A DNA stretch of 64,000 bases from Paraphysoderma sedebokerense (lineage: Eukaryota; Blastocladiomycota; Physodermatomycetes; Physodermatales; Physodermataceae). The notes under the pieces are model-generated. The model worked only from the letters and a program-made list of their open reading frames with translations, searched no databases and had not been told where the DNA came from. Numbering within the stretch: position 1 is the first letter of the stretch; each line of letters begins with the position of its first letter. Below are positions 50,849-51,795 of the stretch, one piece after another. Both the position numbers and the translations under genes were made by a program. The stretch covers positions 1 to 64,000 of the forward strand of contig JAHLJZ010000026.1 of NCBI GenBank assembly GCA_025602915.1. The letters run 5' to 3'.

Positions 50849-51795
50849 ATGATGTCCCTCAATTCCCTAGACGAACCTCGGCAATTAGTGCAACAAACAA
50901 TTGCTACATTAAGCCCTGCCGCTGATATCGAAGTCATTCACAACATCGGCGATATAGCAGCCGGAACGGAAGAAATTAGGGCAAAGCAGAGAGAAGAATT
51001 GCGTGATATCTTAAGATGTTTGTTGATACTGTTAACTACCTTTCATTCTGTTTTCACCTCTTAAATTAAATTAAATTATTCTCCTTTTTGCTCTTATTTG
51101 ATTGAAATCGACCGAATGGATTGAAGCGCTCTCGCGTAAACTCGAGGTCGCAAAGACAAATGCTTCTCGTCCGGAAAAACAGCCTAATGAGACACTACAT
51201 GCCGAAAAAATGGTCGAACTAGACAAGGAAAAGTTTCTGTTGAAACGAGATATCGCTGATTTGGAGGAGACTAAAGAATATCCTTTTTTTAAATCTCATG
51301 TTTACCGGTCCGCGAGTTTTATGCGTGTAGCATTCGAAAAATAAACATCGAAGCTAATTAATTAATTTCAATTCCTTAACTCAATTTTACATCTTTAGAA
51401 AAACAGTTGGAGGTTCTTAAAATGGAATTGTCCTCGGTAGACGAACAATTGAAACAAGAATTGCCAGTAGATAGTAACGTGTACGTTTGATGAATAACGG
51501 TGTATGAAGTTGCGTGATATACTTACTCTTTCTATCTAATTCTACAGAGTTCTTCTTAGGCTTTATCGGGCTCTAGGTGTCACTTTGTATCCAGATCAGC
51601 AAGGTCAATCCCAAAAGGCCGTCATTCGTACGTCATTGATTGCGTTGCTAAAACCTTCAAAAGTTTGTGCTTGACAAACCTTTTAAATTAACTGTAGGTT
51701 CACAAAACAACAACGACGCTGCCGTTATTCAATTGAATGACAACAAATACAGTCCGTTCTACACGACTAATTTCATATGGGAAATGTCAATGTAG
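50849..51795 (+). CDS. SPC24: Kinetochore protein Spc24 (Ndc80 complex)
   Basis: join(50849..51017,51127..51277,51391..51480,51548..51627,51698..51795), 195 aa, close to human SPC24 (197). The N-terminal ~115 residues are helical coiled coil; the C-terminal globular domain shows 'VLLRLYRALGVTLYPDQ' and the family end 'NKYSPFYTTNFIWEM'. Spc24 pairs with Spc25 at the inner end of the Ndc80 complex and docks on CENP-T and Mis12. The second intron (51278-51390) has AT-AC ends with U12-type signals, and splicing it gives an unbroken 'EETKESLEKQLEVLKMEL' coil. No GT-AG alternative in that place keeps the frame without inserting odd residues. Divergent from ALDH7A1, convergent with TRAPPC8 (88 bases). 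Confidence 0.88.
51278..51390 (+). other. Predicted U12-type AT-AC intron in SPC24
   Basis: The 113-nt intron starts 'atatccttttt', identical to the U12 5' splice-site consensus (ATATCCTTT), and ends '...ttttac'. The minor-spliceosome branch-site consensus TTCCTTAAC is present exactly at 51372-51380, with the branch A 11 bases from the AC end, a normal distance for U12 introns. Exon phases on both sides match. Confidence 0.85.

Follow-up and report, generated by a model that had tools for sequence, protein, structure and literature searches.

A putative U12-type AT-AC intron in SPC24 of the blastocladiomycete fungus Paraphysoderma sedebokerense and candidate components of its minor spliceosome

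The SPC24 gene and its second intron

The window analysed here, a stretch of 64,000 nucleotides from the genome of the algae-infecting fungus Paraphysoderma sedebokerense, carries on its plus strand a gene of five exons at 50849-51795. Exon 1 (50849..51017), with its start codon at 50849, encodes an N-terminus identical to that of the NCBI protein P0001, and removal of the GT-AG intron 1 (51018..51126) results in a protein that is likewise identical to P0001 in this part. According to the conceptual translation, the gene continues with exon 2 (51127..51277), exon 3 (51391..51480), exon 4 (51548..51627) and exon 5 (51698..51795), which ends in the stop codon TAG at 51793-51795, and the third and fourth introns (51481..51547 and 51628..51697, respectively) are of the GT-AG type. 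The first-pass annotation had named the gene SPC24, a chromosome-segregation (kinetochore) gene, and this assignment is borne out by residues 87-192 of the spliced product, which match the Pfam family PF08286 with 80.1 bits, as well as by matches of the product to solved Spc24 chains (E 1e-5 to 4e-4). Amongst 245 candidates, the only database relative at E <= 0.001 is P. sedebokerense P0001 itself, which is identical to our spliced Spc24 save at the junction of intron 2.

Intron 2 (51278..51390, plus strand; 113 nt, phase 2) follows an exon that ends in ACTAAAGA, the last base being 51277, and it runs from ATATCCTTTT to TTCCTTAACTCAATTTTAC. Its sequence features point to a U12-type intron with AT-AC ends. 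The first ten bases, ATATCCTTTT at 51278..51287, conform to the U12-type 5' splice site (A/G)TATCCTTT. Near the 3' end lies the branch-site motif TTCCTTAACTC, and the branch site TTCCTTAAC (51372..51380), which is followed by TC, agrees with TTCCTTRAY. The intron closes with TTTTAC, placing the AC 3' splice site at 51389..51390, and AT...AC is one of the two terminal pairs (AT-AC or GT-AG) of U12-type introns. The second A of the branch site (51379) lies 11 nt from the last base of the intron (51390), a distance within the U12-type optimum of 11-13 nt given in a review (PMC3584512). Furthermore, AUUCCUUA of the branch site and UAAGGAAU in the U12 encoded by the same genome form a duplex of 8 bp.

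Removal of the AT-AC intron joins KRDIADLEETKE to SLEKQLEVLKMELSS in frame, in phase 2 after codon 106, and conceptual translation through the retained intron meets a stop codon. On the Spc24 profile this join scores 80.1 bits, compared to 68.8 bits for the rival junction discussed below. Coordinates, donor, branch site and AC end are thus exactly those proposed in the first-pass annotation, and its claim that splicing restores the Spc24 coil in frame holds as well. Based on these features of the sequence, we consider it very probable that 51278-51390 is a U12-type AT-AC intron in P. sedebokerense SPC24 and that it is removed by a retained minor spliceosome; we infer that splicing in the cell takes place at these sites.

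The deposited protein model describes this region differently. At the intron-2 junction P0001 has KEYPFFKSHLEVLKM, where the AT-AC join yields KESLEKQLEVLKM, and amongst the in-frame alternatives that were enumerated it is a GT-AG intron at 51300..51406, with donor GTTTACCGGT and acceptor AAAAACAG, that reproduces it. If the deposited model were right, the major spliceosome would remove 51300-51406, giving the exact junction of P0001 in frame, and the U12-like elements would be there by chance. However, this junction replaces SLEKQ with YPFFKSH in the Spc24 coiled coil, which lowers the Spc24 score by 11 bits, its donor appears poor as judged by eye, and it leaves the exact ATATCCTTTT, the exact TTCCTTAACTC and the AC at 11 nt unexplained. 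Chance is further contradicted by the genome-wide frequency of a looser form of the motif pair, which is enriched about 7-fold over a reversed control (see the next section). We therefore regard the deposited GT-AG junction as very unlikely. Judged from the sequence, the deposited Spc24 model appears to be wrong at intron 2, and the minor intron is probably what caused the error. The case illustrates that a minor intron can be masked by automated gene prediction, here at the price of an apparently wrong stretch in a coiled coil.

Candidate minor introns across the genome

The looser motif pair consists of RTATCCTT and TTCCTTRA separated by 31-91 nt and occurs once in the 64-kb window. Across the genome assembly (27.3 Mb in 195 contigs) it is found at 52 places, compared to 7 for the reversed pattern, and since these 52 include 5 exact duplicates, 47 distinct places remain. 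Sequence simulated from the composition of the window, 40 Mb of one strand each, contained 5 matches with a model of order 1 and 9 with a model of order 2, which translates into an expectation of about 7 and 12 per genome, or 0.016-0.029 per 64-kb window; a smaller first simulation had given 4 matches in 60 windows (0.067 per window). Of the 47 distinct places, subtraction leaves some 35-40 that may be real minor introns, and a motif pattern as strict as this one must miss others.

The composition of the 47 distinct places provides further detail. The first base is G in 29 and A in 18 of them. The position +9, which is unconstrained by the pattern, is occupied by T in 39/47 and +10 by T in 34/47, and at the likewise unconstrained position after the branch As a C is found in 33/47. 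As acceptor of each candidate we took whichever AC or AG produced the longest open join, and the openness of the joins is for this reason partly selected. No open join was obtained in 4 of the 52 rows (L029, L050, L053 and L054), and several candidates that join short frames only are probably background. Ten of the 47 joins were submitted to Pfam, and in eight of these conceptual joins a domain is rebuilt across the junction (ThiF, Ssu72, Nic96, Cpn60_TCP1, DER1, STX6_10_61_N, KAP and BRCT), a rate that is biased because the ten had been chosen by eye for their resemblance to known proteins; the other two joins scanned (L063 and L058) had no Pfam match.

The assembly contains duplicated segments of about 3 kb that lie on the same contig. 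In all seven pairs checked the two copies share 100% identity and the same orientation and are separated by 12 to 41 kb (C4:443189/474728 and 445004/476543; C18:65682/93113; C23:67460/90965; C29:177379/189924; C47:34402/46642; C71:39387/79949), and they represent either recent segmental duplication or an assembly artefact.

Minor spliceosomal RNAs and proteins

The first-pass annotation had taken the intron as a sign of a fungus that retains the minor spliceosome. In agreement with this, the genome yields matches to U12, U6atac and U4atac as well as to the 65K, 48K, PDCD7/59K and CENATAC proteins. Amongst the components it had named for a search, U12, U4atac, U6atac, 65K and 48K were matched, and the total lack of components that would have spoken against its reading is not seen, but U11 was not found.

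In searches with covariance models, U12 is matched over its full length (1-151) with 42.4 bits (E 5.3e-6), which is below the Rfam cut-off of 53, and the same model has no match in 14 control genomes; the RNA carries GUAAGGAAUA. U6atac reaches 39.8 bits (E 2.7e-7), above its Rfam cut-off of 33, retains GAGAGA and GGUUAGCA and has a T run at its 3' end. U4atac scores 32.9 bits (E 0.0076), below its cut-off of 53. At E <= 10 the U6atac and U4atac models have matches in 11 of the 14 control genomes, none of them above the cut-off, and weak scores with these two models therefore mean little by themselves. We accept the U4atac candidate because of its 14 consecutive pairs with U6atac from the same genome: in stem II, UCAGACAGAGACGG of U6atac pairs without a break with CUGUUUCUGUCUGG of U4atac, a run that is matched in 6 of 5000 shuffles. 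The energy of the U4atac/U6atac pair is -32.7 kcal/mol, compared to a shuffle mean of -16.8, and 1 in 5000 shuffles is as low. Both RNAs deviate from the Rfam consensus, and either of them pairs less stably with the consensus form of its partner (-21.4 and -17.5). Helix I, in which AUCU of U12 pairs with AGAU of U6atac, is unspecific, as consensus U6atac with the genome's U12 gives -8.3 compared to -7.5 for the true pair.

The Rfam model of U11 has no match in the genome at E <= 10. The pattern AAAAGGGC...AATTTTTK occurs at 4 places, compared to 5 in the control, and an Rfam scan of three of these four loci (L068-L070; L071 is a copy of L070) detected no snRNA; L069 is rejected as U11, being antisense within a coding frame that we take to be SMC2. 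The pattern AAAAGG...AATTTTTGG occurs at 18 places, compared to 5 in the control, and Rfam detected no U11 in 17 of these 18 loci (L079 was omitted as a copy of L078). The best-looking candidate, L072:1501-1601:+ (C6:114017-114117:+), contains AAAAGGATAT, which complements the donor ATATCCTTTT exactly, about 80 nt ahead of AATTTTTGG; it overlaps a seemingly coding frame on the opposite strand and is probably a chance occurrence. As U11 has diverged in many lineages and parts of the genome may be missing from the assembly, the failure to find it is a gap and no evidence that it is absent. An unrecognised U11 presumably exists in the genome.

With regard to the proteins, a 65K RRM is located in L065, whose joined frame has RNA-binding protein 40 as its best PDB match (3egn/5obn, 47.8 bits), followed by nucleolin with 33.4 bits. 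In the 65K search of the genome L065 ties at 27.2 bits with L066, which is poly(A)-binding-protein-like, and it is the reciprocal search only that separates the two. Judged by eye, the frame of L066 reads as poly(A)-binding-protein-like and that of L067 as U1A/U2B''-like, and both were dropped as 65K candidates, L066 despite its score. The CHHC finger of U11-48K is found in L041 with 32.2 bits (cut-off 21.1), a family that is matched in 2 of the 14 control genomes, in 1 of them above the cut-off. TRM13 shares the CHHC finger with 48K; Pfam finds no TRM13 domain in four frames of L041, a locus that spans about 3 kb only. U11-59K/PDCD7 is matched with 28.7 bits (cut-off 27) in one frame and 19.6 bits in another, or 31.1 bits with the neighbours included, and CENATAC (CCDC84) has five matches on contig C9, the best with 40.8 bits (cut-off 25.3). 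Neither PDCD7 nor CENATAC is matched in any of the 14 controls.

The U6atac gene, L002:1501-1604:- (C121:41260-41363:-), shows a change from A13G14 to U13C14 in the box that recognises the 5' splice site by base pairing; this box reads AAUCGAGAGA compared to the consensus AAAGGAGAGA (A13G14G15A16 to U13C14G15A16). Counted in the known register of U6atac-donor pairing, 2 of the 6 pairs are lost, both as internal mismatches against ATATCCTTT. RNAduplex gives -4.0 for the pairing here compared to -7.9 for the consensus; we prefer the pair count because these energies come from registers other than the known one. Despite the changed box, the introns retain CCTT, that is, CC at +5/+6. A donor compensating for the change would read RTATCGATT. 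The combination of RTATC with TTCCTTRAC occurs at 125 places, compared to 78 in the control, and amongst 100 of these 125 places that were listed 27 start with RTATCCTT, three start with RTATCGAT, two of them identical in sequence, and none has the RTATCGATT donor, so that no compensation is seen there. That P. sedebokerense U6atac has a rewired donor-reading box, yet is a better match to its own U4atac than to that of the consensus, is a tentative reading that we hold to be rather unlikely; the change is present in one copy of one assembly and may be an assembly error, or a second copy may have escaped assembly. Should the rewired box be true and characteristic of the phylum, it would fall to U11 and 48K to select the donor, and U6atac would be able to take over from U11 in spite of an interrupted helix.

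Rare U2-type AT-AC introns exist, and the SPC24 intron might accordingly be removed by the major spliceosome, with the minor machinery persisting as a relic, a reading that would accommodate both the U11 not found with Rfam and two motif patterns and the altered donor-pairing box of U6atac, but to which we give hardly any credence, as the branch-site motif matches the genome's own U12, U4atac and U6atac are mutually paired, matches to 65K, 48K, PDCD7 and CENATAC are present and more GT and AT introns of the U12 type lie in conserved genes.

For removal of the intron by the minor spliceosome, which is the reading we favour, the established pathway suggests the following course. U11 together with the 48K protein would read ATATCCTTT at the donor, and U12 would pair with TTCCTTAAC, bulging the branch A, while 65K and 59K would bridge the U11 and U12 particles. 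The U4atac/U6atac/U5 particle would then join, and U6atac would displace U11 at the donor and build the active core by pairing with U12. With the exons joined as GA|ATC, the reading frame of the Spc24 coiled coil would be preserved.

Minor introns in other fungi and in mammalian SPC24

The statement of the first-pass annotation that most fungi have lost the minor spliceosome stands for Ascomycota and Basidiomycota, but not for several early-diverging fungi for which minor introns are described (PMC10639083). In that paper, Rhizophagus irregularis and Basidiobolus meristosporus, in its wording a Glomeromycete and a member of the Zoopagomycota, have 205 and 249 minor introns, respectively, and minor introns are published for Spizellomyces and Neocallimastigomycetes too. 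Rhizophagus resembles P. sedebokerense in being a fungus with minor introns, with donor and branch motifs like those of animals and plants and with minor snRNAs; all four snRNAs are reported there, whereas U11 was not found in P. sedebokerense, and the lineages of Rhizophagus and Basidiobolus differ from the Blastocladiomycota, to which P. sedebokerense belongs (PMC10639083). Rhizopus oryzae and Phycomyces blakesleeanus, early-diverging like P. sedebokerense and 'Zygomycota' in the wording of the source, possess U12 spliceosomal RNAs and from a few to about 20 U12 introns, numbers that derive from ESTs, whereas ours derives from a motif scan of the genome (PMC2846911). The early fungus Lichtheimia corymbifera shares with P. 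sedebokerense a partial set of minor snRNAs and a divergent U6atac; in Lichtheimia, however, U4atac rather than U11 is the RNA that was not found, and it is the second half of U6atac that diverges rather than the donor-pairing box (PMC4133162).

The main text of PMC10639083 does not name Blastoclad-, Allomyces, Catenaria or Paraphysoderma, and amongst the papers listed, as far as their main text goes, no report of minor introns in Blastocladiomycota was found. A paper on Lipomyces names the phylum in its methods only, and where Allomyces is mentioned in the listed papers, the context is a different one. The phylum may well be tabulated in the supplements of the minor-intron survey, which spans over 3000 genomes, or in introns.info. 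With P. sedebokerense, the Blastocladiomycota, a deep fungal branch, would be added to the lineages whose minor spliceosome looks functional, which is relevant to the number of its losses in fungi.

SPC24 is also a minor-intron gene in human (PMC6865273) and, as Spc24, in mouse (PMC8034651), a likeness to P. sedebokerense that is drawn at the level of the gene only. SPC24 is placed amongst the younger minor-intron genes (PMC6865273), and with a minor intron in a fungus as well as in mammals, an age beyond this 'younger' class becomes testable. A second likeness to human concerns the STX6_10_61_N candidate of the genome scan, which belongs to the same syntaxin family as human STX10, described as a U12-intron gene in a preprint (PMC12637451).
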